DNA from: a virus
Strand: one strand, 5' to 3'
DNA length: 23,858 nucleotides
IMG/VR virus record: IMGVR_UViG_3300006802_016965
Span: 1-23,858 of that record
Part shown: positions 553 through 23,177 of the stretch, piece by piece
How positions within the stretch are numbered: the stretch's first letter is position 1
Layout of the letters: each line of letters opens with the position of its first letter
Program-made: the position numbers and the translations under genes
Notes under the pieces: model-generated
What the model was told of the DNA's origin: nothing
Database searches by the model: none
Seen by the model: only the letters and a program-made list of their open reading frames with translations

Positions 553-1866
553 ATGGTATATGCATCAACTGAATCAGATATTACTTGGGATTCTAACAGC
601 GTCTTATTAATAGTACCTGTATTAGCAGATCCGTATCGCCATCGTAATGACAATAAAGTATCTTTTTTGTATGTGTATGATTTCAATTCAGAACAAGAAT
701 GGATATTAAATTATGCACATTCGGATATAAAGTTTTGTAATATACCAGTTGAACAGTTGGTATTTTCTAAAGTTACATTTTGTTATAATAGTTTTATTTT
801 AAAGCAGTTCGGGCACAATACAATTGATGCGGATTTATGTTATTGGTTGAATTATAATAAGCCAATTGAAGTAGATTTTTCTATTGATATATCATCATAT
901 CATCGTTGGTATCGGAAACTGCGGAATATTAATAATATTGTGCCAATAGTCAATTTTATAGCATATTGCAGAAACATCGTGTTAAATTTTAAAGAGATTT
1001 TCTATGACATTGAATTTGATGATTCTTTGGAATTCTATAACCATACTGTTTTAGGTAATTTGTATAAACTTGAACATAGTGGAATACCGTGTAATGTAGA
1101 TGTTGCTCGTGAGTTTTATAAGGATAGTCGATTAAGTCCGATACTGTATTCTCAGTATAATATTTTTACTGCTACCGGAAGACCGAGTAATAAGTTTGAT
1201 GGTATTAATTATGCAGCTTTAAATAAAAGTTCTGGAGTACGAAAGATGATTTCGGTAAGCGATCCAAATGAGCTTTTGTTGGAATTCGATTATGATTCGT
1301 ATCATATTCGATTAGTTGCTGATTTGATTAACTATACGTTTCCTGAAGGTAATTTGCATGAATATTTTGGCAGGCAATATTTTCAAAAACAAACCCTCGA
1401 CGATGAAGCATATGAGATGTCCAAAGGCGTGACATTTAGAATGCTGTATGGTGAAATATTAGATGAGTTTCGTCATATCGAGTTTTTTCAAAAGGTAGCC
1501 GAATACAGATACAAGATATATGAAAAATTCCAAAATGATGGTTATATAAAAATGCCAATCAGTGGTAGGAAGATAAAACGTGCAAATTTTGAAAATTTAA
1601 GTTCTACAAAACTATTTAATTATATTTTACAAGGACATGAAACTGAGCGAAATATGCTCGTGTTAACTAAAATTTTTTCATACTTATATAATAGTAAATC
1701 GCGATTAATTCTATATACATACGATAGTTTGTTGTTTGTATATAATAAACAAGATGGTCGTAACTTTATTGAAGATATAACGACTATATTAAATGACAAT
1801 TCTATGAAAGTTAATTTAAAGGCTGGTTTTAATTTCCATTCAATGAAAAGGCGTGAATATAAATGA
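553..1866 (+). CDS. Compact family A DNA polymerase-like protein
   Basis: This 437-aa protein carries the polymerase domain signatures of family A (Pol I) enzymes in the right order. TATGRPSN lies at 206-213. Motif A is DYDSYHIR at 246-253, with the catalytic Asp at D246. The O-helix motif B has K291, F295, Y299 and G300 with the canonical spacing. NYILQG lies at 356-361. Motif C is YDSLLF with D391. Several usual residues differ: the motif A Glu (E. coli E710) is His, the O-helix Arg (R754) position is Tyr, and the motif C HDE is YDS. The N-terminal ~160 residues show no recognisable 3'-5' exonuclease motifs. Both metal-binding aspartates are kept, so activity is plausible but not certain. 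The phage also encodes a complete family B replicase at 19694, so this may be an accessory or repair polymerase. Its stop overlaps the next ATG by 4 nt. Confidence 0.82.
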   Translation: MVYASTESDITWDSNSVLLIVPVLADPYRHRNDNKVSFLYVYDFNSEQEWILNYAHSDIKFCNIPVEQLVFSKVTFCYNSFILKQFGHNTIDADLCYWLNYNKPIEVDFSIDISSYHRWYRKLRNINNIVPIVNFIAYCRNIVLNFKEIFYDIEFDDSLEFYNHTVLGNLYKLEHSGIPCNVDVAREFYKDSRLSPILYSQYNIFTATGRPSNKFDGINYAALNKSSGVRKMISVSDPNELLLEFDYDSYHIRLVADLINYTFPEGNLHEYFGRQYFQKQTLDDEAYEMSKGVTFRMLYGEILDEFRHIEFFQKVAEYRYKIYEKFQNDGYIKMPISGRKIKRANFENLSSTKLFNYILQGHETERNMLVLTKIFSYLYNSKSRLILYTYDSLLFVYNKQDGRNFIEDITTILNDNSMKVNLKAGFNFHSMKRREYK

Positions 1867-2945
1867 ATAATTCTTATATAAAAATAATAAGTGAGTGGTT
1901 TTCACAATTATCCAAGGGATATTCATTCCCTCCGTACAGTGAATCCGATTTAAAAATATTGGAGAAAGTGTTAAAGAACCATGGAGTTCAATATACAAAA
2001 GAGGATTTATTAAGGATTAATGAAGACGAAGAAAATACACGATTTAGAGGAAAGCATGCATCGTTTATGGAAGATGCCGCATCATTTAAAGAATATATGC
2101 TAAAAAAATATTCATCGGGTGCAGTAATAAATGGTTTGGAGCAGTTGTATATCGGTATTAAAGAATTAGATGATAGAGCTTTACAAGGTGTTACTAAGAT
2201 AATTGCAAAAAACACAAAAAGACTACCATCAGCAGGTACTTTTGATATTGCAAAATACGAAAAGAAATTATATAATTTAATCAGGGAGTCAATCACTATT
2301 GAAAATGGTGTCCCTTCACAATTATTTTTGTCAATTATATATGCAGGTAAAGTAGTAACGACTGAACATATAGAAAGTGATATTTATGCGGATGTGTCTA
2401 TAGAAGGAACAAATGGTATTATGATACAAACAGCTTCTACATTGGAAGAAATTAAAGCTGGCACAATGTCAGCAGAATCTGTTGATTTATTATATGCTAT
2501 TTTAAATATACATGAGTTGATAACAGATGAGCAGCCACAGAAAAAAATGGATAGGGCATATCTAAATGCCATTTTAAAGAGGATTGGTAGTGAAGATGTT
2601 ATAAACGATATCAATTCCATAGTGGGAGACGCACAAACAAGTGAAGTTGAAAGCATTAGGAAATTGGGTGCTGAAGTACAAAATGTATTAGGTCGAGTTC
2701 CAATTGAACAACTCGTACCAGCATTTTTAAAACAAATAAATGCAGAAATAGCAAATAAATTAAGCTCAGTGTCATTTATCGCTACAACAGAGAGGTTAAA
2801 GGATAATATTTACCTTGATCATATAAGTGGCATTTATCAAAAATTTAAGGGTAACCTTGAAATATTACCACAAAGCATAAAATATATAATAGATACAGAT
2901 ATTATATTTTCTGGTGATTATTTGAGAAAAAAGGTAGTAAAATAA
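1863..2945 (+). CDS. Unknown protein, paralogue of the next gene, nuclease-like motif degenerate
   Basis: This 360-aa protein starts at an ATGA overlap with the polymerase gene. Residues 10-38 (SEWFSQLSKGYSFPPYSES and following) closely match residues 9-37 of the downstream protein. Similarity appears to continue further in: FLSIIY (155-160) against FLYALF, ADVSI (176-180) against GDLKV, and RAYLNAIL (231-238) against SAYLNRLY. The pair therefore looks like an ancient tandem duplication. Where the downstream copy has EVKG, this one has MIQT (187-190), so a PD-(D/E)XK-type active site would be lost here. No signal peptide, membrane segment or Walker motif is visible. Position suggests a role linked to the polymerase or to virion assembly, but nothing in the sequence fixes a function. 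Confidence 0.8.
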   Translation: MNNSYIKIISEWFSQLSKGYSFPPYSESDLKILEKVLKNHGVQYTKEDLLRINEDEENTRFRGKHASFMEDAASFKEYMLKKYSSGAVINGLEQLYIGIKELDDRALQGVTKIIAKNTKRLPSAGTFDIAKYEKKLYNLIRESITIENGVPSQLFLSIIYAGKVVTTEHIESDIYADVSIEGTNGIMIQTASTLEEIKAGTMSAESVDLLYAILNIHELITDEQPQKKMDRAYLNAILKRIGSEDVINDINSIVGDAQTSEVESIRKLGAEVQNVLGRVPIEQLVPAFLKQINAEIANKLSSVSFIATTERLKDNIYLDHISGIYQKFKGNLEILPQSIKYIIDTDIIFSGDYLRKKVVK

Positions 2946-2946
2946 T

Positions 2947-4137
2947 ATGAAAGATTATTCAGAGATTGTAGAAACATGGTTCAGTAGATTAGAAAAGGGG
3001 TATGCTATGCCTCCATATTCAAAATCACAATTGCGTGTTTTGAAAAATGTTTTAGCTGAAATGAATATAGTAGGAACAATAGACACGCAGAAAATAAATG
3101 AAGCTCCAAAAGACAAAGAACGATTAGAAAAAATTATTGCAATATTAAGAAAGAATCCAGCCTTTATTAGTGCAGTATTTCGTGAGACCATGAAATATTC
3201 AGAAGAAGGTGTTGACATTGGAACAGAACTTGAAAAATCAACGGGGGAATCTGATCATAAAAATCGTGAAATACTTAAATATTTTATAAAAGCAATAAAT
3301 GATACGCCAGGTGATTACGATGATATTGAGCGGTTTGTATTAGGGTATGGGCAATTTGATTTTATTGATACTAAAAAGCTGATGTCTGGGGCCACCAGTT
3401 TTAGAGATTTTATTGTTTCTCGTAATGACGTTTCGTTTGAATTTTTATATGCGCTGTTTTTGAATTTATATGATGTGACAGTCACAATATCTGGATCAAA
3501 TAGAGGACCTGGCGAAGTAGCATTGGCATTGTTATCACCTAAGATTACGTTTGCAGATGTCGGGGATCTGAAAGTTAATTCTGATTTTGTTGAAGTCAAA
3601 GGCGAATTGAGAAAGGGTTCAGGGGGAGGACGATTAAAAAATTCAAATGCAGATTTTGGTAAAATATTTTTGGATTCAGCATATTTAAATAGGTTATATG
3701 ATGAGCTAAATATTCCAGAAGAGAATCGAAAATATAAAATTGTAGGAAGCGGTAGAAGCAATGATAATTTAGTTTTAATTGCGCAGGAATTGGAAAGTGT
3801 TGTGCCAGGTACAGGGCAAGTATTTGCTGAAACAATCATTAATGATGTATTTATCAATGCGCCACAGGATATGAAAGATGCATTTATTGATAAAGTGCTT
3901 ACTATTGATCCAGCACAATCATTTTCGGATATGGCTGAAATCGCATACATGAATTATGTCGAGGTTTTGAAAGGGAAGGCATTTTCACATTTTTTGTTAC
4001 TGAATAAAGGTATGGAAAAAGCAGTTGCTTTTCCGATAGAAAATTATAAAAGTTTTTTAAACAAGGATTATATTTTTACGAGTTTATCATTTGTGGACAA
4101 GAGGGGAGGCCCCGCAATACAATTACAGATGCGATAA
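2947..4137 (+). CDS. Possible PD-(D/E)XK-fold protein, paralogue of the upstream gene
   Basis: This 396-aa protein begins 1 nt after the previous stop. It has the N-terminal module WFSRLEKGYAMPPYSKSQL (11-29) also found upstream. The centre contains GPGE (187-190), GDLKV (206-210), EVKG (216-219) and a glycine-rich GGGR (226-229). An E...GD...ExK arrangement is what a PD-(D/E)XK nuclease active site looks like, with E190, D207, E216 and K218 as candidate metal and catalytic residues. This is inference from motif spacing, with no alignment behind it. The rest of the protein is a soluble alpha/beta-looking sequence. If real, it might be a DNA-processing or head-associated nuclease. The next frame overlaps its end. 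Confidence 0.78.
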   Translation: MKDYSEIVETWFSRLEKGYAMPPYSKSQLRVLKNVLAEMNIVGTIDTQKINEAPKDKERLEKIIAILRKNPAFISAVFRETMKYSEEGVDIGTELEKSTGESDHKNREILKYFIKAINDTPGDYDDIERFVLGYGQFDFIDTKKLMSGATSFRDFIVSRNDVSFEFLYALFLNLYDVTVTISGSNRGPGEVALALLSPKITFADVGDLKVNSDFVEVKGELRKGSGGGRLKNSNADFGKIFLDSAYLNRLYDELNIPEENRKYKIVGSGRSNDNLVLIAQELESVVPGTGQVFAETIINDVFINAPQDMKDAFIDKVLTIDPAQSFSDMAEIAYMNYVEVLKGKAFSHFLLLNKGMEKAVAFPIENYKSFLNKDYIFTSLSFVDKRGGPAIQLQMR

Positions 4138-4153
4138 CAGTGAGGGATGGATC

Positions 4154-4537
4154 TTGGGGAATTTATTATGTACATTTATACAGAGAACAGATTTGGAATT
4201 GCTATTAGCTGTTCTCCCAAAGATATATAAATTGAAATATGATACAGTATTTGTGTTTGAAAATTCAGATAATGCAAATCAGCTTTATTGTACATATAAT
4301 GTAATCGGGCAATACGATCCGACACCAAACACAATATCTGTTCACAGGAAATCGGAAACAAATACATTGTATTCAATTAACGCACTTAATGAAATAATTA
4401 AAAAAGCAAATAACGGGATATTAGATAAGAAGTTCCAACTCGAGTGGCAAAATTACGAAAATACATTACTATTAACAAGGGATGGAGACATAGTAAAAAC
4501 AAAATTGGAATTCGTAGAAAGTCGGTATTTGAAATAA
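4154..4537 (+). CDS. Unknown small phage protein, start uncertain
   Basis: The frame is open from before 4091 to the stop at 4537. The C-terminal ~100 residues (KYDTVFVFEN..., TISVHRKSETNTLYSINALN..., ...LEWQNYENTLLL) have the composition and regular strand pattern of a real protein. No ATG lies in frame at a sensible place. Candidate TTG starts are at 4091, 4154 and 4232. The region before 4232 also encodes a 27-residue frame (ATG 4147, stop 4228-4230; a second ATG at 4168 follows GGGGA), which ends just before TTG 4232. The true start could therefore be 4232, with a micro-ORF upstream. The coordinates given take the middle TTG as a compromise. The function is unknown. Confidence 0.55.
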   Translation: MGNLLCTFIQRTDLELLLAVLPKIYKLKYDTVFVFENSDNANQLYCTYNVIGQYDPTPNTISVHRKSETNTLYSINALNEIIKKANNGILDKKFQLEWQNYENTLLLTRDGDIVKTKLEFVESRYLK

Positions 4538-4637: not shown

Positions 4638-5393
4638 ATGGATTTTGACAAAATTCGCCAGAAACTGGCAAACCTACAAGCGCAAGGAAAGGGTGGTAAA
4701 AAACTCATTTGGAAACCCAAACCAGGAACGCAGGTTATTCGAATGGTACCGTATGTACATAATCCCGAATGGCCATTTTTAGAACTTTCATTTTATTACG
4801 ATTTAGCACCAAGGACGATTATATCGCCACTAAACTTCAACGACCCAGACCCTGTACAGGAATTGGCAGACCAGCTAAAATCAACAGGGGAAAAAGAAGA
4901 TTGGCTATTAGCTAGACAGCTTGAAGCTAAGGTCAGGACCTATGTTCCTGTATTGGTGCGTGGAGAAGAATCAGAAGGAGTTAAGTTTTGGGGTTTTGGT
5001 AAAACTGTTTACGAGGAGTTATTGAAAACAATATCTGATCCTGATTATGGAAACATTTTAGATTTAAAAAGTGGTTCTGATATTACAGTTGAGTACGAGA
5101 AGCCAGCAGAAGGATATCCAAAAACTACATTCAGAGTAAAGAGGAATACATCTCCTGCAACTGATAGTAAAGAAATTGCTGCATTACTAAAGGAAATGCC
5201 GGATGTAAAGGACATTTGGCAACCACCTACGTATGACGAACTTAAGAAAATTTTGAATGATTTCATCGAAAACAATGACCAAAGCAGTGACCACTCGGAT
5301 AATAGCACAGATGTAGAAACTGCGACTGTCGGAGAAAAGGCGGTTGATGCCACGAGTGATATTGATGCTGCATTTGATGAAATGTTTAATTAA
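4638..5393 (+). CDS. Single-stranded DNA-binding protein, T4 gp32-like, no zinc site
   Basis: This 251-aa protein would coat ssDNA at the fork and organise the replisome. Its N-terminus (MDFDKIRQKLANLQAQ) resembles the basic gp32 B region used for cooperative binding. It is followed by a core with WKPKPGTQVIRMVPYVHNP (26-44) and a long FWGFGKTVYEELLK stretch, as in gp32 homologues. The C-terminus is a linker plus an acidic tail ending DIDAAFDEMFN, which in T4 gp32 is the tail that contacts other replication proteins. T4 gp32 binds zinc through one His and three Cys. This protein contains no cysteine at all, so that site is absent and the core must be stabilised differently. It is the first gene of a replication block and has its own promoter. 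Leftward neighbours are unrelated. Confidence 0.88.
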   Translation: MDFDKIRQKLANLQAQGKGGKKLIWKPKPGTQVIRMVPYVHNPEWPFLELSFYYDLAPRTIISPLNFNDPDPVQELADQLKSTGEKEDWLLARQLEAKVRTYVPVLVRGEESEGVKFWGFGKTVYEELLKTISDPDYGNILDLKSGSDITVEYEKPAEGYPKTTFRVKRNTSPATDSKEIAALLKEMPDVKDIWQPPTYDELKKILNDFIENNDQSSDHSDNSTDVETATVGEKAVDATSDIDAAFDEMFN

Positions 5394-5398
5394 TAAAT

Positions 5399-6631
5399 AT
5401 GTCAAAAAAAGTTAGTCAATCAGCTCTAAATGAGCTATCGAAAGATCTTATATCACATATTAATAAGAAGTTTGCTACAAAGACAGACAAGGTCGCATAC
5501 CATTTAACAGATACAGGTGTAACTGATGTAACTAAATGGATTTCGACTGGTTGTGATATGTTAGATCTGGCAGTTTCTAATAGAAAAAACGGCGGACTTC
5601 CGGCTGGTAGAATTATCGAAATTACCGGCCTGGAAGCTTCCGGGAAATCTTTGTTAGCTGCATATGCTCTGAAAAGCACACAAGAAGCAGGTGGTTTAGC
5701 AATTTATATTGATACTGAAGCCGCAGCAAGTCGCGAATATTTGCAGGCCATTGGTGTTAATATTGATAAATTAGTATATTTGCCGCTAGAACTTTTGGAA
5801 GATATATTTGATAGTATTGAAGCTACTATTGCAAAAGTTCGTGCTGCCGACAAAGATGTGCTTGTTACTATTGTGGTTGATTCAATAATGGGTTCAACTA
5901 CAAAAAAGGAAATAAATTCCGAGCACGGGAAGGACGGATATGCTACAGATAAGGCAATTATCTTATCAAAAGCAATGCGAAAAATTACAAATATGATTGC
6001 TCGACAAAATATTTGTTTAATAATGACAAATCAGTTGAGAGTTCGTATGGGTATTTCATTTGGTGATCCATATGGAACATCAGGTGGAAAAGCGATTGCA
6101 TTTCACTCATCAGTTCGTTTACGTTTAAAATCTATGGGAAAGATTAAAATGAAGATTAATGGTGTAGAGCAAACAGTAGGTATAAAAACACGAGCGGTTG
6201 TAGTAAAAAATAGGCTAGGTCCACCGTTAAAGGAAGTTACATATGACATTTATTTTAAATCGGGTATTGATAATTATGGTGGTTGGTTAAACACATTAAA
6301 GAGTTTCGACTTGGTATCATCAGGCACGTTTTGGAGTTTGCCGTTGAAATACACAAGTACAAAAGAACACGATTCAGATGGCTCTTTAGTTGCACATCAT
6401 TTTACTGATGAGATAATCAATCCAGAAACTGGTGAAATTAAGAAGGTTGACAAAGACGTATTGAAATTCAGAAGTAAAGATTTCGGTGCTTGGATGGAAG
6501 CTAATCCTAATCTGAAATCCTGGGTTTATGATATGTTATGTGACCGTTTTATTATGGATTATCAAGTCAATAAAGATTTTGGAATCGATGACATTGTTAT
6601 TGATGAAGAAACACCAGGAGAGGAATCATAA
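5399..6631 (+). CDS. uvsX: UvsX-like RecA-family recombinase
   Basis: This 410-aa protein is predicted to form filaments on ssDNA and to drive strand invasion for recombination-dependent replication and repair. The Walker A motif is GLEASGKS (77-84). A RecA-type glutamate-containing stretch IDTEAAA follows at 104-110. The Walker B strand is LVTIVVDS with D161. The L2-region signature MTNQLRVRMG lies near 210, followed by TSGGKAIAFHSSVRLRL, typical of UvsX/RecA proteins. The length is close to T4 UvsX (about 390 aa). It starts 5 nt after the gp32 stop, without a Shine-Dalgarno, so it is probably co-transcribed from the promoter at 4561. Its partners here are the gp32-like protein and the helicase. 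No UvsY candidate was recognised. Confidence 0.92.
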   Translation: MSKKVSQSALNELSKDLISHINKKFATKTDKVAYHLTDTGVTDVTKWISTGCDMLDLAVSNRKNGGLPAGRIIEITGLEASGKSLLAAYALKSTQEAGGLAIYIDTEAAASREYLQAIGVNIDKLVYLPLELLEDIFDSIEATIAKVRAADKDVLVTIVVDSIMGSTTKKEINSEHGKDGYATDKAIILSKAMRKITNMIARQNICLIMTNQLRVRMGISFGDPYGTSGGKAIAFHSSVRLRLKSMGKIKMKINGVEQTVGIKTRAVVVKNRLGPPLKEVTYDIYFKSGIDNYGGWLNTLKSFDLVSSGTFWSLPLKYTSTKEHDSDGSLVAHHFTDEIINPETGEIKKVDKDVLKFRSKDFGAWMEANPNLKSWVYDMLCDRFIMDYQVNKDFGIDDIVIDEETPGEES

Positions 6632-6655: not shown

Positions 6656-7702
6656 ATGAACAGATTGAAAGAAGCATGGTCAACATTTGGAGACCAATTA
6701 CAGCACCCACCCACAAAAGACGACAGAATATTGATAATTGATTCCCTGAATACCTTTATTCGAGTATTTAGTGCTGTACCTGCATTAAACGATAATGGAC
6801 AGCATGTTGGTGGCGTGGTAGGTTTTTTGAAATCTGTTGGCGCAAACATCCGTCAGTTCCAAGCAACACGATGTATATTAGTGTTTGATGGTTCTGGCGG
6901 ATCACAGCGTAGAAGAAAGTTGTATCCAGAGTATAAAGCTACTCGAAAAAATAGAGATCAATTTAATAGACATCAGGAGTTTGCAGATCTTGTAGATGAA
7001 AAGGAATCTATGAAAAAACAATTTATGAGATTGGCGGAATACTTTGATACATTGCCAGTTTCCGTAATATCAATAGATCATATTGAAGCAGACGACACGA
7101 TTGCATATATTGCTAATCAGCATTACAAAGACGTAGATAATAAAATTACTATTGTATCAACAGATCGCGACTTTCTACAATTAGTAAATGATAAAATACA
7201 GGTGTGGAGCCCTACAAAAAAGAAGCTATATACTTCAGAGAGAATGCGTGATGAGTTCGGAATACATCCAGATAATTATCTATTATATAGAATGATGTCA
7301 GGTGATGCTTCAGATAACATACCTGGTATAAAGGGTGCGGGATTAAAAACACTACAGAAGCGAATACCGAAAGTAATTGAAACTCCAATGCATTTTGATG
7401 AGCTAATTCAAGAGGCACAACAATATATCGATACTGGATCAAAAATAAAACTTTATGAAAATATCGTTTCTAATCGAGATATTCTTGATCGAAATTATAA
7501 ATTAATGCAATTGCAAGATACAGATATTGCAGCATCAAACAAATTAAATATTTCGTCGATATTAGATCAGCCGATTGATAAGTTGGATATCAAAACATTT
7601 AAACGATTATTTTTGGAAGATAGTCTGTATGTAAATATCAAAAATGTGGATAGTTGGCTTCGTGATACATTCGCGCGCTTAAACATATTTTCAAAAAAGT
7701 AA
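6656..7702 (+). CDS. 5'-3' exonuclease / flap endonuclease (T4 RNase H type)
   Basis: This 348-aa FEN-superfamily nuclease would remove RNA primers and 5' flaps during lagging-strand maturation. The acidic metal-binding residues are all visible: D29 in LIIDSLNTF, D78 in VFDGSGGSQRRRKLYPEYK, the IEADD cluster (143-147), TDRDF (169-173), and the GDASDNIPGIKGAG helix-hairpin-helix region (216-229). That last motif is shared with the Pol I 5' nuclease domain and T4 Rnh. The family A polymerase at 553 lacks this domain, so the two could act together, but they are 5 kb apart and no fusion is implied. It lies 24 nt after uvsX and 3 nt before the helicase gene, inside the replication block. Confidence 0.92.
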   Translation: MNRLKEAWSTFGDQLQHPPTKDDRILIIDSLNTFIRVFSAVPALNDNGQHVGGVVGFLKSVGANIRQFQATRCILVFDGSGGSQRRRKLYPEYKATRKNRDQFNRHQEFADLVDEKESMKKQFMRLAEYFDTLPVSVISIDHIEADDTIAYIANQHYKDVDNKITIVSTDRDFLQLVNDKIQVWSPTKKKLYTSERMRDEFGIHPDNYLLYRMMSGDASDNIPGIKGAGLKTLQKRIPKVIETPMHFDELIQEAQQYIDTGSKIKLYENIVSNRDILDRNYKLMQLQDTDIAASNKLNISSILDQPIDKLDIKTFKRLFLEDSLYVNIKNVDSWLRDTFARLNIFSKK

Positions 7703-7705
7703 TAA

Positions 7706-9106
7706 ATGCAACAAGAGAAGATATCAAAATATGGATATGGATTTCAATTAAAAATCATTACATCGATAATGACAGATGCAACATTTACATCTCAAGTATT
7801 TGATCTGTTAAAGACCGACTATTTTGAATCTGAATCGATTAAATTTTTAGTAGATCGCGGATTGGAATATTTTAAACAACAAAAGAAAATACCAACGTTA
7901 GAAGTATATAAAGTATTTATTGAAACAATCGGTGATGATTTATTAAAGCAGGAGATCATAGGTGCATTAAGAACCGCTACTCAATATGTAGGTGCAAATG
8001 ATTTGGAATTCATAAAAGAAACAACATTAGATTTTTGTAAAAATCAAGCAATTCGTTCTGCGATATTAGAATCAGTTGATTATTTAAAAATGGGTAATTA
8101 CGATGAAATCAAACGTGTTATTGATAAAGCAATGCGTGTTGGTTTGGATTCTGAAATCGGATTGGAATATTTCGACAATATAGATCGGCGATATGAAGAA
8201 AATTCCAGAGATCCAATATCTACCGGTTGGGATACTATTGATGAAATGATGAAGGGTGGCTTAGCAGCGGGTGAATTGGGTGTATGTATTGCACCTTCTG
8301 GTGCAGGTAAAAGTTGGCTCCTTGCAAAAATCGGTGCATCTGCACTACTTTCCGGAAAAACAGTTTTGCATTATACGTTGGAATTATCCGAAGATTATAC
8401 TGGTTGGAGATATGATTGTATATTATCGGGCATTTCATTAGATAAAATAAAAAATCACAAGGAAGACGTCAAGAAAAAATTAATGGAAATTAAAGAAAAG
8501 TCGGGCGGTGACTTGATAATAAAAGAGTATCCTACAAAGTCTATATCACTAATGGGTATAAGATCTCATATAACTAAACTAAAAATGCTAGGTACATCAC
8601 CCGATATAGTAGTCATAGATTACGCTGATCTACTCAAATTTGGAAACAGTACAATGGCTAAGCATGAAGCATTAGAACAGTTGTACGAAGAGATAAGGGG
8701 GTTTGCGGGAGAATTGCAAATTCCTATTTGGACCGTTAGTCAAAGTAATAAATCCGGATTAGATGGTGATATCGTTGAAGCAGAATCAGCAGCCGGGGCT
8801 TATGCGAAAATATTTACTGCAGACTTTGTGATGTCATTATCTAGAAAAGCTCAAGATAAGTTGTCAAATACAGGAAGGATACATATTATTAAAAATAGAT
8901 TTGGTGTCGATGGTATTACATTTCCTGTTTTTATGGATCCATCACGAGGTGCAATTGACATTTTTGCAGCAGGTACAGATGGTGCTCGTAATGCAACTAA
9001 TCAAATGCAAACAGATAGTCAATATAATAGACAGAGACTGAAGCAAAGATATCAGCAAATAAATGGAAATTTTCTCAACATTGAAAATAAAAACGTTGAG
9101 TTTTAG
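7706..9106 (+). CDS. Replicative DNA helicase, DnaB/T4 gp41 type
   Basis: This 466-aa hexameric helicase is expected to unwind DNA 5'-3' at the fork. The N-terminal ~165 residues form a helical domain. The RecA-like motor follows with STGWDTIDEMMKGGLAAGE (172-190), Walker A APSGAGKS (196-203), the H1a-type glutamate in YTLELSE (E226), Walker B DIVVIDYADLL with D305, and the H3 sequence WTVSQSNKSG (342-351). The length matches T4 gp41 (475 aa). A primase partner (gp61) is not recognisable in the window. The order gp32, uvsX, FEN nuclease, gp41 differs from T4 but keeps all four in one apparent transcription unit. Confidence 0.92.
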   Translation: MQQEKISKYGYGFQLKIITSIMTDATFTSQVFDLLKTDYFESESIKFLVDRGLEYFKQQKKIPTLEVYKVFIETIGDDLLKQEIIGALRTATQYVGANDLEFIKETTLDFCKNQAIRSAILESVDYLKMGNYDEIKRVIDKAMRVGLDSEIGLEYFDNIDRRYEENSRDPISTGWDTIDEMMKGGLAAGELGVCIAPSGAGKSWLLAKIGASALLSGKTVLHYTLELSEDYTGWRYDCILSGISLDKIKNHKEDVKKKLMEIKEKSGGDLIIKEYPTKSISLMGIRSHITKLKMLGTSPDIVVIDYADLLKFGNSTMAKHEALEQLYEEIRGFAGELQIPIWTVSQSNKSGLDGDIVEAESAAGAYAKIFTADFVMSLSRKAQDKLSNTGRIHIIKNRFGVDGITFPVFMDPSRGAIDIFAAGTDGARNATNQMQTDSQYNRQRLKQRYQQINGNFLNIENKNVEF

Positions 9107-13438: not shown

Positions 13439-14233
13439 ATGAAACGAATTGAAGATTATAGTAAAAAACAAGCTATCAACGAGCTGTACATCGCAGTGCA
13501 GAGTGAAGGATCTCGTCTGGGTAGGCCAAATATAGTGATCCGCACGACAGGCTGCACGCATAGATGTTATTTCGGAGAAAAAGGGGGATGGTGTGATACA
13601 TGGTACAGTTCCATAGCTCCAGAGAAAGGTAAATATTCAATGCAAGATATTGAAGATTTTATCAAAGACAATCCACAAGCTACTGATATTATGTTGACGG
13701 GTGGTTCTCCAACAATGCAACCAGTATTGTGCAATGAGATAATGCATCTTGCAAACAAATACAATTTATTTGTTACTATTGAAACAGAAGGATCGCATTT
13801 TGTTGAAACGGATATTCCAATAGATTTAGTAAGTTTGTCGCCTAAGTTCTCCAACTCAGTACCTGTTCTCGGAGTTAAATTTCCAGAGGAGTGGGAAATG
13901 AGAAGGCCAGAAGTTGACGAACGCTTTATTAGACAGCATGAAAAGTTTAGATTAAACAAAGATGCAATTGCAAAGTCAATTTCATATCATAAAGATTATC
14001 ATTATAAGCCTGTTGTAAACCCAATACAAGATCCGGATACTTGGAAAGAAGTTGAAGAGTTTAGGGTAGAAATGGGAATACCAAAAAGCAAAACATTCAT
14101 AATGCCACCAGGTGACACTCCAGAATTATTATTCCTTAACTACGGAGATGTTATGCGATTTTGTGCTGAGAATGGATATTGCTTTACACCAAGGTCGCAC
14201 ATCATGGCATTTGGTACGATGCGCGAAGTGTAA
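13439..14233 (+). CDS. queE: QueE-like 7-carboxy-7-deazaguanine synthase (radical SAM)
   Basis: This 264-aa radical SAM enzyme is expected to convert 6-carboxytetrahydropterin to 7-carboxy-7-deazaguanine (CDG). N-terminal VQSEGSRLGRPNIVIRTTGC matches the QueE opening. The cluster motif is C39-x3-C43-x8-C52-DT: the usual CX3CX2C with six residues (FGEKGG) inserted before WCDT. The SAM-binding GGEP motif reads GGSP (88-91). ETEGS (115-119) and LSPK (133-136) are normal QueE features, and the end has the PRSHI...FG pattern. The cysteines are all kept, so a 4Fe-4S cluster should form. It sits about 2.3 kb from folE/queC/dpdA with unrelated genes between, and its own promoter is unclear. Related radical SAM chemistry on another pterin is possible but less likely. 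Confidence 0.87.
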   Translation: MKRIEDYSKKQAINELYIAVQSEGSRLGRPNIVIRTTGCTHRCYFGEKGGWCDTWYSSIAPEKGKYSMQDIEDFIKDNPQATDIMLTGGSPTMQPVLCNEIMHLANKYNLFVTIETEGSHFVETDIPIDLVSLSPKFSNSVPVLGVKFPEEWEMRRPEVDERFIRQHEKFRLNKDAIAKSISYHKDYHYKPVVNPIQDPDTWKEVEEFRVEMGIPKSKTFIMPPGDTPELLFLNYGDVMRFCAENGYCFTPRSHIMAFGTMREV

Positions 14234-16262: not shown

Positions 16263-16850
16263 ATGAAAAAAATGTTTAGAGAAGAAAGGCTACAAAAAGC
16301 ACAAAAGGCATACGGTGAATTCTTAACGGCAATGGGATTTGATTGGGAGAATGATCCAAATATGCGCGAAACTCCAATGCGTGTAGCAAAGGCACACTAT
16401 GATGATTTGTGGCAAGGAATTTACTACGAAGCACCAAAAATTACCGCATTCAACAATGTCGACCGGTATGATGGAATGGTCTTTCAAGGGAATATTGATT
16501 TGAAATCTATATGTTCACACCATTCGTTGCCGTTTATTGGCAAAGCTCATGTTGCATATTTACCAGGAACAAAAGTAATTGGATTGTCTAAATTGAATCG
16601 TATTGTAGAATGGTTTGCCCGAAGACCACAAGTGCAAGAAAACCTCACAATGCAGATACATAGCTATATAAATGAAATTTGTGAAAATAACAAAGGCGTT
16701 GCAGTAGTTATTGAAGCGGATCATATGTGTGCTTGTGTACGAGGTGTGAAACATAATAGCACAATGATGACAAGCAAATTATCGGGTGAATTTTTGGAAA
16801 GTCATGAAGTTAGGGAAGAATTCTATAATTTTATAAAATTCCTAAAGTAG
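16263..16850 (+). CDS. folE: GTP cyclohydrolase I
   Basis: This 195-aa enzyme converts GTP to dihydroneopterin triphosphate, the first step toward 7-deazaguanines as well as folate. Zinc ligands are visible as C84 and H87 in [10 protein letters not shown] and C156 in HMCACVRG. The signature [20 protein letters not shown] (104-123) is textbook FolE, as are the N-terminal ETPMRVAKA (36-44) and the C-terminal SGEF...R..F pattern. It has no N-terminal extension. It is followed after 1 nt by the aminotransferase gene, with queC and dpdA next, which assigns it to base modification and not to folate supply. A consensus Shine-Dalgarno precedes it. Confidence 0.95.
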
Positions 16851-16851
16851 T

Positions 16852-17859
16852 ATGAAGAAATATTTATTCTCACCAGGTCCTGTTAAATCTAAGCAAACGG
16901 TAGAAATAAATTATCACCACCGCAGCAATACATTTAAGAATTTATATGCTGAGAAATGTAATATTATAAAAGCTGAGTATTTTACAAATGATTACGATGT
17001 GTTATTAACACAAGGATCGGGAACGTCAGCAATAGAAGTTGCATTAAATGGATATCTATCCGGTGGTAACGCTGACCATACAAAGTATGTGCTGGTTTTG
17101 ACTAATGGGAGCTTTGGGCATAGATTATATGATATTTGCAAAACTATACCTGGCAAAATAGTAACGATGCCTGTCCAGAGTGTTGATGAAGCTCTTCACG
17201 TATTACAGAGCTCGACTATACCGTTTGACGTGTTTTGTGGTGTAGCATTCGAGACCAGTAGTTCGACTTATAATAATTTACATAATATAGTTGAATATTG
17301 TAATAACAAGGGGATTATAACAATAATCGATATGGTTTCGGCATTAGGATATTACGCTCCACCATATAATGCAACAGCAGTATGCTCAAGTACAGCAAAA
17401 GTATTGCGCGGCTTGCCGGTATTAGGTATTGTGGCGTATCGAAAAGATAGCAAACCGCTTATAGGTTCATCTGGATATTATTTAAATATGAAAAGGTATA
17501 TTGAATCTAAAAAGGATTGCCAAACACCGCATACATCAATGATACCACAGTTGCAGTCAATTAATTCGGCTAATTTTTTCGATCGGGAATGTATTGATGC
17601 GAATTGTGAGGCTCTTAGTGTTATTGATTCAACCACTTGTTTTACGCTACTTGGGGAGCGATATGCACCTGTATTGACATTTAAATTCAGTGATAAGGCG
17701 TTGATGAAACGAGTGATTAAAGCCTTGAAGAAAAATAATATGGAAATATATTTCAATTCTGTTTATATGAAAGATAAGTTCCAAATTGGAATGTTTGGTC
17801 ACAATAAGAAAGCATATAAAAAATTGAATAAGATTATTAAAAAAATATGCCGTAAATGA
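16852..17859 (+). CDS. Class V PLP aminotransferase (PhnW/AGAT-like) in the 7-deazaguanine operon
   Basis: This 335-aa PLP enzyme shows the N-terminal SPGPV (7-11), HHRS...F (22-28), GSGTSAIE (55-62), NGSFGHR (85-91), an ETS motif (134-136) like the HETSTG of PhnW, D160 in IIDMVSALG for the pyridine nitrogen, and the Schiff-base lysine K183 in SSTAKVLRGLPVLGIV (179-194). That lysine block resembles 2-aminoethylphosphonate:pyruvate aminotransferases more than cysteine desulfurases. PhnW interconverts a primary amine and an aldehyde, which invites the idea of transamination at the 7-position side chain of a deazaguanine. Its gene begins 1 nt after folE and overlaps queC by ATGA, so its product is very likely part of this pathway. 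The substrate is unknown, and an amino-group supply role is an alternative. Confidence 0.85.
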   Translation: MKKYLFSPGPVKSKQTVEINYHHRSNTFKNLYAEKCNIIKAEYFTNDYDVLLTQGSGTSAIEVALNGYLSGGNADHTKYVLVLTNGSFGHRLYDICKTIPGKIVTMPVQSVDEALHVLQSSTIPFDVFCGVAFETSSSTYNNLHNIVEYCNNKGIITIIDMVSALGYYAPPYNATAVCSSTAKVLRGLPVLGIVAYRKDSKPLIGSSGYYLNMKRYIESKKDCQTPHTSMIPQLQSINSANFFDRECIDANCEALSVIDSTTCFTLLGERYAPVLTFKFSDKALMKRVIKALKKNNMEIYFNSVYMKDKFQIGMFGHNKKAYKKLNKIIKKICRK

Positions 17860-18494
17860 AAATATTAATGGAAATATCCGGTGGTGCTGATAGTATGTTA
17901 TCGTCATTATTGGCAATAAAAAAATATGGGACGGATGCAGAATATCATGGAATTCTTGTTGATTACCACCAACTACCTTTTGAAAAAGAAAAGGCAAAAG
18001 CATTGGAGTTTTGTGATAAATACAATATAAAATTGCATATTGTTTCGGTCGATGGATTATTCGTAGGAGGCGCAGTTACAGGTGAGCACAATGTTGAAGA
18101 AGTCTCGGATATATATACACCATTAAGAAACTTTGTGATTGGTGCAATGGCAAGCTCGTTAGCAGAACGTATCGGGGCATCTGTAATTGTTTCCGGTAGC
18201 AAAACTTTAAACAAGGATAAACAGCCGTGGTCTTTTTCCGATTCGACGTTGGGTTTTTACTTGCATATGGATTCGATGTTGAATTATTTAACAGATGGTT
18301 CTATTAAGATGGATCCAATATTGATGGAAAATCGCCAAAACAAAATGACTAAATTCGAAGTATTTGATGCATTGATTGATGATTTTGGATTAAATATGTC
18401 TGATTTTTGGAACTGTTTTAATTCAAGCACTACGCAATGCGGCGAATGTAATAATTGTAAAGAAATACAAAAATATAATGAACGAACTAAATAA
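17856..18494 (+). CDS. queC: QueC-like 7-cyano-7-deazaguanine synthase
   Basis: This 212-aa PP-loop ATPase is expected to convert CDG to preQ0 through an adenylated intermediate and ammonia. SGGADS (8-13) is the PP-loop. YTPLRN (87-92) is the QueC VPxRN-type motif, and the zinc site is complete: C187 in FWNCF, then C195, C198 and C201 in CGECNNC. The usual DYSGYPDCR substrate loop is not present. After VSGSKTLNKD the sequence reads KQPWSFSDSTLGFYLHMDS, so the 7-deazaguanine pocket is altered. It may act on a different or further modified substrate. The start overlaps the aminotransferase stop by 4 nt and the end overlaps dpdA by 17 nt. Confidence 0.9.
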   Translation: MKILMEISGGADSMLSSLLAIKKYGTDAEYHGILVDYHQLPFEKEKAKALEFCDKYNIKLHIVSVDGLFVGGAVTGEHNVEEVSDIYTPLRNFVIGAMASSLAERIGASVIVSGSKTLNKDKQPWSFSDSTLGFYLHMDSMLNYLTDGSIKMDPILMENRQNKMTKFEVFDALIDDFGLNMSDFWNCFNSSTTQCGECNNCKEIQKYNERTK

Positions 18495-19701
18495 GAAATT
18501 ATTTTATTTCCCAGCAAATAGTGCGGGACCTATATCTGCAATGATGGTGAAAAACCAGTGGACACCAAATAAAAAGTTACCATTTCGCTATTATTCTGAA
18601 GAATACCCCTCAGATTATAGAATACCGGCGTATCTAACAACAGCAGGGCATTTGTACAAAAAAGAAGAATACATTAAAGGATTTGATTTTCCAGATGATT
18701 GTGTTGTTTTTGGTGATTCGGGTGGTTTTCAAATAGCTACTGGAAAATTAAAGTATACTGACGAGTTACGTGAAAAAATATTCCGTTGGTTAGAGAACAA
18801 TTCTACTATTGCAGCTAATTTAGATATACCACCTAAAGTATCAAAGTCTGGTCACTTCGATGAGTGTTTAGACATTAGCTACAATAATTTTAAATATTTT
18901 GAAAAGCATCAATCTGGTAAAACAAAGTTTTTAAATGTTCTTCAAGGTCTTCATGAAGAGAATTATTTAAAGTGGTATAATAGAGTTTGTGATTTTGAAT
19001 TTAATGGCTGGGCGATTGGTGTTGATCAACGTACAGCTGCATTATATCAAATAATGGCCGCGGTATCTATATTGATGGATGGCAAAGAGCACGAAAAGAA
19101 AAATATAGAATGGATACATTTCTTGGGTGTAACAGGAACAGAACCATTAGTATATCTGACGCAAGTCCAGAAGTCATTAGAAGAGATAGGTTCTCATGTA
19201 CAAATATCTACAGATTCATCAACACCAAATATATCTGCAAAGTTTGGTGGGTATTTTATACCCCGAGGTCTGGATTGGCAGATTATGAATGTACCAAGAG
19301 ACATTACATTGAAAGGCGGAAAGATAGATTATCAAAACACCAGAACGTATCCACCTGTTTATAATGAGGTACATAATATATTAAGGGATGAATATATAGA
19401 TACAGAGGCGTTTGTTCATTTTAAAAGTGAGGCGTATGCAGTATTAGTTTTATCTAATATGGCAACATTTGTTGATGTAAAGCAAAATATTCATAATGTT
19501 GTGCATTCACATGAATATTTTCAAGAGCAAATTTTATCTACTCAAATGTTCAAGAATATAAAGCTGATCGACAAAATTATAAAATCAGACAATCCACGAA
19601 AGGAATTTCAAAGAGTATTACCGCAATTAACAAAACATCGACCTAAGAATGAAATAGTAAAGCATGAATTTTTTGTAGAAAAATCAGCTGTGAATGTATA
19701 G
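18478..19701 (+). CDS. dpdA: DpdA-like DNA 7-deazaguanine transglycosylase
   Basis: This 407-aa TGT-superfamily enzyme is predicted to swap guanine in DNA for a 7-deazaguanine base. Core TGT features are present: FGDSGGFQ (78-85) with D80 as general acid/base, NVLQG (153-157), GWAIGV (177-182), and STDSSTP (244-250) with D246 as the likely nucleophile. No cysteine occurs after residue 171, so the C-terminal zinc cluster of tRNA TGTs is missing. A DNA substrate is inferred from the phage context and the close coupling with folE and queC. A tRNA-guanine role is unlikely. The gene overlaps DNA polymerase B by 8 nt, tying modification to replication. Confidence 0.88.
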   Translation: MNELNKKLFYFPANSAGPISAMMVKNQWTPNKKLPFRYYSEEYPSDYRIPAYLTTAGHLYKKEEYIKGFDFPDDCVVFGDSGGFQIATGKLKYTDELREKIFRWLENNSTIAANLDIPPKVSKSGHFDECLDISYNNFKYFEKHQSGKTKFLNVLQGLHEENYLKWYNRVCDFEFNGWAIGVDQRTAALYQIMAAVSILMDGKEHEKKNIEWIHFLGVTGTEPLVYLTQVQKSLEEIGSHVQISTDSSTPNISAKFGGYFIPRGLDWQIMNVPRDITLKGGKIDYQNTRTYPPVYNEVHNILRDEYIDTEAFVHFKSEAYAVLVLSNMATFVDVKQNIHNVVHSHEYFQEQILSTQMFKNIKLIDKIIKSDNPRKEFQRVLPQLTKHRPKNEIVKHEFFVEKSAVNV

Positions 19702-22363
19702 ATCGGTTTACTATAATAGCAGCAGATCAGAAATACATTTATGGGGCGACGGGCAACACGATGATTCTGGGTACAAGGTTTTCAAATATGAGCCATATGC
19801 CTATATAGTAGATAAAAATGGCGATTGCATTACTATTGATAATCATCGTTGCAAAAAAGTATCCACTTGGTCGCCAGAGGCTGAAAAAATGGGTATGGTA
19901 TATGAACATAATGTATCTCCTACAACGAGATTTTTAATTGATAAATACTTAGACAGTGATAAAGTATCGGATCAGACAAAGATACTATATTTGGATATAG
20001 AGGTTGCAAAAGAAGACGCATACAGCACACCTGAAGATGCCGACAATACAGTAACAGCAATAACATATGTTGCTACCGGAGATGATAAATATACGTGTTT
20101 GCTATTAGATCCAGGCAATGCATCTACAAAAAATACAACGGTCGACATACAACTGAAGAAAAAAGAGAACGGCCAGATCGTTGATGGAAAAACGAAAACT
20201 ATTGATGTTGATATAATCACATTTCATAGTGAACGTGAGCTGCTTCGGAGCTTTATGATGCGATATCAAAAAATTGGGCACAATATTATTACAGGATGGA
20301 ACGTTGAGTTTTTTGATATGCCATATTTGTATAATCGTATTGTCAAATTATTTGATTATGCATTTGCAGATTTATTTAGTCCCGATGCTAAAATAGTCAA
20401 AAGGACATATTTAAAAGAACGCCAAACAATTTCGATAGCTGGTGTAACTATATATGATTATCTTACAATGTATCGTAAATTTACATTTACTGATCAGAGT
20501 AATTATCGATTAGATACTATCGCAAAGTTCGAATTATATAGAGGTAAGATAGAATACGAGGGGGACTTGGATCATTTATATAAAACTGATATTGTCAAAT
20601 TTGCAAAGTATAATATTGTAGATGTCGAGCTGGTAGTTGCGTTGGAAGAAAAAATGCGCCTAATCATGACCGGCTTAGGACTATGTCATAAAGGGCACGT
20701 TCAGCACCAAGACATACTCTTTACATCGATGTATTTGGATGGTGCGTTTCTAACATACTGTAAGCGAAATAATATGGTCGCGTCAGCAAATCGCTCAGCC
20801 GCATCTGGTAAAGCTCAAGGTGCGTTTGTTAGAAAGCCAACTCCTGGCTTATATAAGTGGGTCTATGATTTGGATCTGACATCGCTTTATCCGAGTATAA
20901 TAATCTCACTAAATATATCTCCAGAAACTAAAGTTGGGATTATAGAATCGTGGGATGAGTTAGAATATGCAAAAGGAACACAATCAACATATAATGTGAA
21001 TTTTTATTCTGATAATACTGTATTAGGTAATTTTGATGATTCTTTCGATGAATCGAAACCTATGCACATAGAACTACAAGGGTCAAGCAACTTAAAAAAG
21101 TGGTTGGATCAAAACGAATATGGTATTGCGAGTAATGGTGTGATATATGATCAAAAAAAGGAAGGAGTTATACCTGCGATTTTGAAAATGTGGTTCGACG
21201 AACGCTCGGAGTATAAAAATTTACGAAAAAAATATGAAAAAGAGGGTGATATAAAAAATGCAGAATATTATGATGGTCAGCAGCTAATAACAAAAATCTT
21301 ACTCAATTCATTTTATGGTGTATTGCTGTTACCGTCATTTAGATTCTATGATAAACAAAATGGCGAAGCCGTCACGCTTACAGGACAATCAGTTATTCAC
21401 CACTCATCAAAAGCAGCAGATCATTTTTATAATAAAGAGTTAGGTATCGCATCCAAGACAGCGAATAATAAATCCTTTTGTATTTACACCGATACTGATT
21501 CCATATTCGAGCCACTCGAGCCACTTTTTATCAATCGATTTGGACCTATGGAAAATTATACGGATGCAGAAATTATTGAAAAATCCAAAGGTATTATTAA
21601 CGATGTACAAACCTATATAAATAAATCATTCGATGTGTATGCAAAGCGTCTTCATAATATTAATTCTCATCGATGGGATATTAAACAAGAGCTTATTGCA
21701 AAGAGGGCATTTTGGGTCGGTAACACAGATACCAAGAGTAAAAAATTTGAGGGAGTAAAGAAGAGATATGCAATGTGGATAGTTGATCAGGAAGGTCATC
21801 GTGTTGATGAAATGGATGTTAAAGGTTTGGATGTTGTAAGGTCAAATTTTCCGCCGCTATTTAGAGATTTTATGAATGGAATTCTTACAGATATCTTACA
21901 TGACGCTGATAAAGATACATTAAATGAGAAAGTGCGAACATTCAAAAAGAATATGTATTCAGTTGATTATAAAAATATTATGATGCCGACAGGTGTAAAG
22001 GATATCGAAAAATACACAACCGGTCGTTTCGGTGTTAGGAAAAAGGGAACACCTGCTCATGTAAATGCTGCATTAAACTATAATGATTTATTGAATAAAT
22101 TCAAGAATGCTGCAGTGCCCAATATTGTAAATGGTGACAAAATCATTTGGACATATATTAAAAGAAATCAATTAAATTTTGATCGTATTGCATTAAAGGG
22201 TTTTGAAGATGACGAGAGAATAGTTGAATTTGTTGAAAAATACATCGATCACGATACGAATTTTAATAATTACCTATTAAATAAACTTCAAAATTTTTGG
22301 TCATCTTTAGAATGGGGTCCTATACAATTAAACGCAATCGCTAATAATTTTTTTAAATTTTAA
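19694..22363 (+). CDS. Family B replicative DNA polymerase (T4 gp43-like)
   Basis: This 889-aa polymerase with proofreading is close to T4 gp43 (898 aa). Exonuclease motifs: DIE (101-103), NIITGWNVEFFDMPYL (196-211) and YNIVDVE (305-311). Polymerase motifs: A, YDLDLTSLYPSI (390-401); B, KILLNSFYG (533-541); C, IYTDTDSIF (596-604). The extreme C-terminus, NNFFKF, is an aromatic tail of the kind that binds the sliding clamp in gp43. The start was chosen at the ATG that overlaps the dpdA stop by 8 nt. No second promoter is visible in front, so the replicase appears to share the transcript of the modification genes. The clamp gene follows with its own promoter. Confidence 0.95.
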   Translation: MYRSVYYNSSRSEIHLWGDGQHDDSGYKVFKYEPYAYIVDKNGDCITIDNHRCKKVSTWSPEAEKMGMVYEHNVSPTTRFLIDKYLDSDKVSDQTKILYLDIEVAKEDAYSTPEDADNTVTAITYVATGDDKYTCLLLDPGNASTKNTTVDIQLKKKENGQIVDGKTKTIDVDIITFHSERELLRSFMMRYQKIGHNIITGWNVEFFDMPYLYNRIVKLFDYAFADLFSPDAKIVKRTYLKERQTISIAGVTIYDYLTMYRKFTFTDQSNYRLDTIAKFELYRGKIEYEGDLDHLYKTDIVKFAKYNIVDVELVVALEEKMRLIMTGLGLCHKGHVQHQDILFTSMYLDGAFLTYCKRNNMVASANRSAASGKAQGAFVRKPTPGLYKWVYDLDLTSLYPSIIISLNISPETKVGIIESWDELEYAKGTQSTYNVNFYSDNTVLGNFDDSFDESKPMHIELQGSSNLKKWLDQNEYGIASNGVIYDQKKEGVIPAILKMWFDERSEYKNLRKKYEKEGDIKNAEYYDGQQLITKILLNSFYGVLLLPSFRFYDKQNGEAVTLTGQSVIHHSSKAADHFYNKELGIASKTANNKSFCIYTDTDSIFEPLEPLFINRFGPMENYTDAEIIEKSKGIINDVQTYINKSFDVYAKRLHNINSHRWDIKQELIAKRAFWVGNTDTKSKKFEGVKKRYAMWIVDQEGHRVDEMDVKGLDVVRSNFPPLFRDFMNGILTDILHDADKDTLNEKVRTFKKNMYSVDYKNIMMPTGVKDIEKYTTGRFGVRKKGTPAHVNAALNYNDLLNKFKNAAVPNIVNGDKIIWTYIKRNQLNFDRIALKGFEDDERIVEFVEKYIDHDTNFNNYLLNKLQNFWSSLEWGPIQLNAIANNFFKF

Positions 22364-22427: not shown

Positions 22428-23177
22428 ATGCAAAAAAACAAAATTGTCAATTTTATTACTAAATATCATCTACAAGGACAATGCCAGCAGGTGAAAATTA
22501 AAGTAAAGCCCGATAAATTAGTAACGAGCTTTGCAACAGAACAAAAGGACTTGCTAGGATTTGTCGCTGTAAGTGATCTCGAGTTTCCATCATTACCTGA
22601 AGATGTGATAAGTGGTAACGAAATGGAAATCGGTGTATTTAATACCAGCGCCCTTTCAAAAATACTTTCCGTAATGGGAAATCAAGTCGATATTTCATTT
22701 AAATCGGAAATGGGGAAAGTCTATCAAATGTCGATGGATGATGGCACATTTCAGTCAAACATTATGCTCGCCGACTTGGATATAATTGAAGAGCCACCAA
22801 AGTTGAATGATTTGCCTGATTTTGAAATAGAATTTAATTTTCTTGGAAATGCCTTTTCTGAGAATTTTATTAAAGCTACAAATGCCTTGCCGGATAGCAA
22901 CACGGTGACATTTATTGATAGTGGTGATGGTGTGGATGTTGTACTTAATCACGCAGATCATAATACCGATAACATTAAAATATCACTAATACCTGATGCA
23001 AAGGAAGGAAGTTTTGAAAATATGCGCTTTAACTCAGATCTCCTTCGTGATGTTTTGGTTGCAAACAAAGATGCAACAAGTATGAAATTTTTCTTATCAA
23101 CAAAGGGGTTATTAAAAATGCAATTCCAGGGTGACGGATTTGCAACTGTTTATTATTTAGTGATGCTCCAATCTTAA
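22428..23177 (+). CDS. Sliding clamp (T4 gp45-like)
   Basis: This 249-aa protein is predicted to form the ring that tethers the polymerase to DNA. It shows the two-domain beta-rich pattern of gp45/PCNA-type clamps: acidic strands SDLEFPSLPEDV (49-60 region), an interdomain linker around EEPPKLNDLPDFEIEF, and a C-terminal GLLKMQFQGDGFATVYYLV ending. The N-terminal extension makes it about 20 residues longer than T4 gp45 (228 aa). It is driven by its own copy of the phage promoter, which would allow the high dosage that a clamp (and late transcription in T4) needs. The clamp loader (gp44/62) is not in the window. Confidence 0.82.
   Translation: MQKNKIVNFITKYHLQGQCQQVKIKVKPDKLVTSFATEQKDLLGFVAVSDLEFPSLPEDVISGNEMEIGVFNTSALSKILSVMGNQVDISFKSEMGKVYQMSMDDGTFQSNIMLADLDIIEEPPKLNDLPDFEIEFNFLGNAFSENFIKATNALPDSNTVTFIDSGDGVDVVLNHADHNTDNIKISLIPDAKEGSFENMRFNSDLLRDVLVANKDATSMKFFLSTKGLLKMQFQGDGFATVYYLVMLQS

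Follow-up and report, generated by a model that had tools for sequence, protein, structure and literature searches.

Divergent family A DNA polymerases of phages

The divergent family A DNA polymerase divPolA1 was named in 2024 from Flavobacterium phage immuto and its relatives, 14 phages in all (Yutin et al., Virol J 21:200, PMC11348598). As that paper describes it, divPolA1 has a palm with the catalytic residues, a truncated thumb and an inactivated exonuclease; elsewhere in the genome its phages encode a regular DNA polymerase, which belongs to family A, B or C, and replication genes are conserved downstream. The paper also describes divPolA2 of barbaviruses, likewise an additional family A polymerase with little thumb that accompanies a family B polymerase (PolB); divPolA2 is set apart from divPolA1 by a different N-terminal domain and a variable neighbourhood. 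The coexistence of such a thumb-poor polymerase with a full replicase raises the questions of how little of the polymerase hand suffices and what replaces the thumb. In our literature searches, the name divPolA1 was found only in Yutin et al. 2024 and its preprint, and no divPolA1 activity was reported. The T4-like Rhodothermus phage RM378 offers a superficial likeness, as its polymerase gene is also compact and unusual. We considered its split polymerase as a relative and rejected it after reading the sequences, which point to one gene for a 5' nuclease and another for an exonuclease part of family B type; the gene annotated as DNA polymerase resembles the latter, unlike divPolA1.

The DNA analysed here (the window) is a virus contig of 23,858 nucleotides (23.9 kb) from a T4-like phage. 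The open reading frame at 553-1866 on the plus strand starts with ATG and encodes 437 aa, with the stop codon included in the span. Its product is probably a small working DNA polymerase, additional to the main one of the phage, judging from the sequence and the predicted structure described below. Residues 204-425 matched PF00476 (DNA_pol_A) with 34.3 bits (E 1.7e-8), a score exactly equal to the curated cut-off of 34.3 bits, and the protein also matched PHROG 17 (phage DNA polymerase; E 2.4e-6). The relatives gave firmer matches: PF00476 was hit by 30 of 34 aligned sequences (best E 2.4e-13), and a PDB search with their profile retrieved the Klenow fragment (E 2.1e-6).

The 553-1866 product is a member of the divPolA1 family

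A tblastn search with the window protein matched immuto gp001 (E 4e-44), Microcystis phage Mel-JY01 and LR756508. We built a tree in careful mode (256 columns) in which 27 members of the family were joined by 14 PolAs from outside it. A single branch, supported at 100/100 and with a stem length of 2.2 changes per column, separated the family from the rest; the reference PolAs sit on long branches and the position of the root is arbitrary, so this tree is not to be read for the place of the family among PolA clades. Immuto gp001 (fam_L054) fell inside the clade of the window protein, again with 100/100, against the 14 other PolAs. The preliminary description of this DNA had proposed such a placement as a check, and grouping with degenerate non-polymerase proteins was not seen.

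The window gene also has the palm aspartates, a short thumb in the predicted structure, an exonuclease region that by its sequence would have no catalytic set, a regular PolB in the same phage and replication genes downstream. What it does not have are the marks of a canonical Pol I-type enzyme, namely the motif A Glu (E710) and a complete thumb. It is thus a member of the already described divPolA1 family. The preliminary description had rightly recognised a second family A polymerase, compact, divergent and specialised, in a phage that also has a regular replicase; this is the enzyme that PMC11348598 describes. The immuto and window proteins are alike in size, in the palm with its catalytic residues, in the short thumb and in the inactive exonuclease, and both phages have an additional regular DNA polymerase and the same downstream replication genes. 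The window protein is only about 32% identical to that of immuto over the core, and its locus has two extra intervening genes.

A scan with the single protein found 52 divPolA1 loci, and an alignment-based scan found at least 583 confirmed places. The family therefore extends far beyond the 14 genomes in which it was first recognised, and it is abundant among uncultivated phages of aquatic habitats. Four of the loci were in bacterial or archaeal bins assembled from metagenomes and are most likely phage contigs. One contig carrying divPolA1 (CALBOT010000124.1) was binned as an archaeon (Nitrosopelagicus) and is most likely a misbinned phage contig.

Predicted fold, thumb and exonuclease region

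The AlphaFold2 model of divPolA1, with 34 relatives in the input, had a pLDDT of 87.0 and a pTM of 0.87. The 50 best VIA-align rows were Pol I large fragments, led by 3po4 (Taq large fragment; Z 26.3, rmsd 3.4, 383 residues aligned), in which model residues 1-433 superpose on Taq 296-832. The predicted structure has a Klenow-like fold in which the thumb is nearly absent. In the place of the thumb, the Klenow profile match and the anchor spacing put a short linker at aa 177-210 (1081-1182, plus strand). From G177 to R210 the window protein has 33 residues; this spacing is 20-38 residues among the 27 family members, compared with 122-214 in the 14 ordinary reference PolAs. In the profile match, the thumb region of Klenow (chain positions 234-331) is paired with profile positions 195-207 (12 positions). 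That about 97 thumb positions of Klenow are represented by about 12, together with the spacing, is the reason for regarding the thumb as nearly absent, a loss that the preliminary description had missed. The thumb supplies much of the DNA contact of family A polymerases (PMC9224347), and the activity of divPolA1 alone may therefore be weak.

Since model residue 1 aligns at Taq 296, the N-terminal 150 residues (553-1002, plus strand) occupy the place of the 3'-5' exonuclease domain and appear to be its vestige, lacking the acidic catalytic set. The invariant residues of this region are P22, H30, H56, D92, P131 and I132. D92 is the sole invariant acidic residue, so that a conserved DEDD exonuclease site is not possible and the domain is predicted to be inactive. 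It had been stated that neither an exonuclease nor a 5' nuclease domain is attached. The second part was borne out, a 5' nuclease being encoded by a separate gene (6656-7702); the first was not, because an exonuclease-like fold is attached, albeit without its acidic set. Unlike E. coli Pol I, divPolA1 would thus have no active exonuclease, and it has no attached 5' nuclease.

These properties bear on translesion synthesis, which had been suggested for this gene and is possible from the sequence, given the predicted lack of proofreading and the altered nucleotide pocket. In such an enzyme, a DNA cleft that is small and open, combined with the changed pocket and the missing proofreading, would allow bypass of damage; an exonuclease without catalytic residues, a missing thumb and an altered motif A are consistent with this. 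The translesion polymerases nu and theta ranked high among the Foldseek hits, yet family A enzymes as a whole receive similar scores. Both of these polymerases carry inserts, whereas divPolA1 is shorter rather than longer. Its fixed position in the core replication block, described below, also suggests a core role and not damage tolerance, and we consider translesion synthesis unlikely.

Active-site residues and selection

Motif A (EFDYDSYHIR) lies at aa 244-253 (1282-1311), motif B, the O-helix, at aa 287-300 (Y287, K291, F295, Y299; 1411-1452), and motif C (LYTYDSLL) at aa 387-394 (1711-1734), all on the plus strand. Among 127 full-length family members, the residues R210, N219, D246, H251, K291, F295, G300, Y357, Q360, E363, Y388, Y390 and D391 were present in every one, and Y299, S392 and H269 were found in 126, 124 and 122, respectively. 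Compared with the Klenow fragment of E. coli Pol I, with which it shares the fold, divPolA1 retains the equivalents of D705, D882, K758, F762, Y766 and Q849. Both catalytic aspartates (D246 and D391) and the K291/F295/Y299 set of the O-helix are thus kept, in agreement with the preliminary description. The changes from Klenow are E710 to H, R754 to Y and H881-D-E883 to Y-D-S (residues 390-392).

The three changes had been noted as active-site oddities, and they are not of equal weight. The steric-gate Glu is replaced by His251 in 127/127 members, whereas this position was Glu in 14/14 reference PolAs, and the motif A Glu has been described as universally conserved in family A (PMC4882331). The O-helix Tyr is less constant (Y287 in 116/127, with Arg in 6). 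The Ser of motif C turned out to be common: HDS was found in T5-like, Twort-like, Schiekvirus, phiYS40 and Teagan polymerases, and HDS or HDA occurs across phage PolAs outside divPolA1. The polymerase of phage Tt72, a phiYS40-like enzyme with Ser at the same motif C position, is active (PMC9324360). This leaves the motif A Glu-to-His change and, in motif C, a Tyr in place of His as the substitutions peculiar to the family. The former is not mentioned in the text of PMC11348598.

In E. coli Pol I, the Glu at this position (E710) blocks ribonucleotides (PMC9324360). A polymerase that uses ribonucleotides, either to make primers or in an RNA-like manner, could thus be envisaged from the invariant H251 at the rNTP-excluding position and from a motif C that resembles the HDS of single-subunit RNA polymerases. 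Ordinary phage DNA polymerases have HDS as well. Furthermore, the other half of the gate, F295, is kept in 127/127 members and His is itself bulky; immuto has an annotated DnaG-type primase and Mel-JY01 a primase-like gene. We regard ribonucleotide use as improbable.

The loss of a steric-gate Glu described as universally conserved in family A also counts against reading divPolA1 as a working polymerase. With the thumb missing, the exonuclease dead and three active-site substitutions, the protein might have retained the polymerase fold without its catalysis and act structurally or in loading instead. This reading has to contend with the invariance of both aspartates, K291, F295, R210 and Q360 across 127 divergent members and with a low dN/dS. 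The median dN/dS was 0.14 (range 0.03-0.42) over 380 divPolA1 pairs, which were limited to a dS under 1.5 and are not independent of each other. A value of about 0.14 argues against decay; the two metal-binding aspartates and the Lys/Phe/Tyr of the fingers are under strong purifying selection, and a dead fold seems quite unlikely.

Regular polymerases and the replication gene block

The gp43 replicase that had been reported in the same phage was confirmed as a gp43-like family B replicative DNA polymerase of 889 aa (19694-22363; PF00136 E 1.2e-40, PF03104, phrog_262 E 2.8e-179). It is followed by a gp45-like sliding clamp (22428-23177; phrog_223 E 5.2e-6). Downstream of divPolA1 lie genes for a gp32-like single-strand DNA binding protein (4638-5393; PF08804 E 1.3e-10, phrog_1192), a UvsX/RecA recombinase (5399-6631; PF00154 E 3.6e-51, phrog_97), a stand-alone FEN-like 5'-3' exonuclease of the Pol I N-terminal domain type (6656-7702; PF02739 E 1.2e-32, phrog_107) and a gp41/DnaB-like replicative helicase (7706-9106; phrog_19 E 3.8e-75). 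All are on the plus strand. PolB stands beside divPolA1 in the window, in Mel-JY01 and in several contigs; immuto has a full-length PolA (gp199) instead and no PolB. The immuto gp199 (NC_055915.1; 21898-24231 of locus L060) has HDQ at motif C, a divergent O-helix and a long tree branch.

Among the 49 loci whose sequence runs on for 7 kb or more beyond divPolA1 on the downstream side, the order companion-gp32-UvsX-5' nuclease-gp41 was found in 45. UvsX is interrupted in some loci. In four of them (L101, L113, L120 and L051), an open reading frame of about 280-360 aa splits the UvsX/RecA gene, perhaps as an intein or as an intron with a homing endonuclease. Two variable intervening genes follow divPolA1 in the window, the first encoding 360 aa (1863-2945, plus strand; N-terminus WFSxLxKGYxxPPYS) and the second 396 aa (2947-4137, plus strand) with a similar N-terminus. 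They were found in only part of the divPolA1 loci, and locus L107 has a related-looking gene at the same site. A segment of the second gene, GDLKVNSDFVEVKG, resembles by eye a PD-(D/E)XK nuclease core. Upstream of divPolA1, the open reading frame at 1-534 (GLYTPGNEFV...) had a match in 111 loci, at the same place in many related ones, and is probably a structural gene.

A near-obligate companion gene

The companion, which we call dn3, is encoded at 4160-4537 on the plus strand (HMM match E 7.7e-49), has about 125 aa with an uncertain start codon, and contains the core motif HRKKETNTLYTINALN. The window companion had no Pfam or PHROG match, and that of immuto had weak ones only. Among 50,697 phage records, the companion was present in six, the identical six that hold divPolA1, and it was a single-copy gene in 12/12 divPolA1 records searched whole. 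When loci were fetched by the companion alone, 46 of 69 held divPolA1, and in all 23 of the others the contig extended at most 2.9 kb upstream. In 171 loci with both genes, a count in which loci overlap in part, the two were always on the same strand with the companion downstream, separated by -54 to 3504 bases. There was one clear exception, the 47-kb contig L107, in which divPolA1 is present and no match to the companion profile was found. The companion is thus a near-obligate, though not strictly universal, partner gene of divPolA1. The text of PMC11348598 names no companion protein; relative to that paper, the size of the family and the near-obligate companion in a nearly fixed gene order are new.

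The companion model had a pLDDT of 95.6 and an alpha/beta fold. Fold searches stayed below a meaningful level (best Foldseek E 0.19, best VIA Z 6.2). The polyomavirus T-antigen origin-binding domain (the Z 6.2 match) and, after it, ACT/PII-type folds were set aside for their low scores. Because the companion co-occurs with divPolA1 and the thumb is missing, we would guess that it stands in for the thumb and grips DNA. An enzyme in two parts, with a thumb-less, His-gated family A core and a near-obligate alpha/beta companion, itself without detectable relatives, that grips DNA in trans, is a speculative extension of this guess, and we hold it to be rather unlikely as a whole.

Proposed role of divPolA1

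We favour, with a probability of roughly 55%, an accessory polymerase of T4-like and related large phages, without proofreading and with poor processivity, that serves gap filling or recombination-linked synthesis, the regular polymerase performing bulk replication. The adjacent 5' nuclease and the divPolA1 core, as recognised by sequence, would together make up the parts of a Pol I for nick and gap processing. With low processivity and no proofreading, divPolA1 would make short patches of DNA, filling the gaps that remain once the 5' nuclease has removed primers. Alternatively, it might extend the recombination intermediates that UvsX produces. Bulk replication would fall to the regular polymerase (of family A, B or C, depending on the phage), and the companion may, more tentatively, help divPolA1 to hold DNA in the stead of the thumb. 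Gene neighbourhood is no proof of function, and in T4 gp43 itself fills gaps.

7-Deazaguanine genes

The window encodes QueE (13439-14233), FolE (16263-16850), QueC (17856-18494) and a DpdA-like transglycosylase (18478-19701), and the DNA of this phage is probably modified with 7-deazaguanine. The preliminary description had accordingly considered copying of modified templates as the role of the polymerase. The presence of all four genes in the window and of QueC in 14/20 divPolA1 records would suit such a role. As a role of the family it was not supported, since Mel-JY01, a complete genome of 190 kb, has divPolA1 and PolB and no QueC, QueD, QueE, QueF, FolE or DpdA detectable by tblastn with window and immuto queries. 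PolB and RecA served as positive controls in Mel-JY01, and with these queries QueE and FolE of the window and of immuto find each other at more than 50% identity. DpdA is hard to detect, so its absence from Mel-JY01 alone counts for little; DpdA searches with a single protein and with phrog_887 missed the annotated DpdA of immuto and are uninformative on its distribution. In addition, LR756508 (484 kb) has divPolA1 without QueC. Ordinary polymerases copy 7-deaza-G templates, so no special enzyme is needed, and a dedicated polymerase for 7-deazaguanine-modified DNA is very unlikely. Between FolE and QueC, the window also carries a class V aminotransferase-like gene (16852-17859) with a weak Pfam match.
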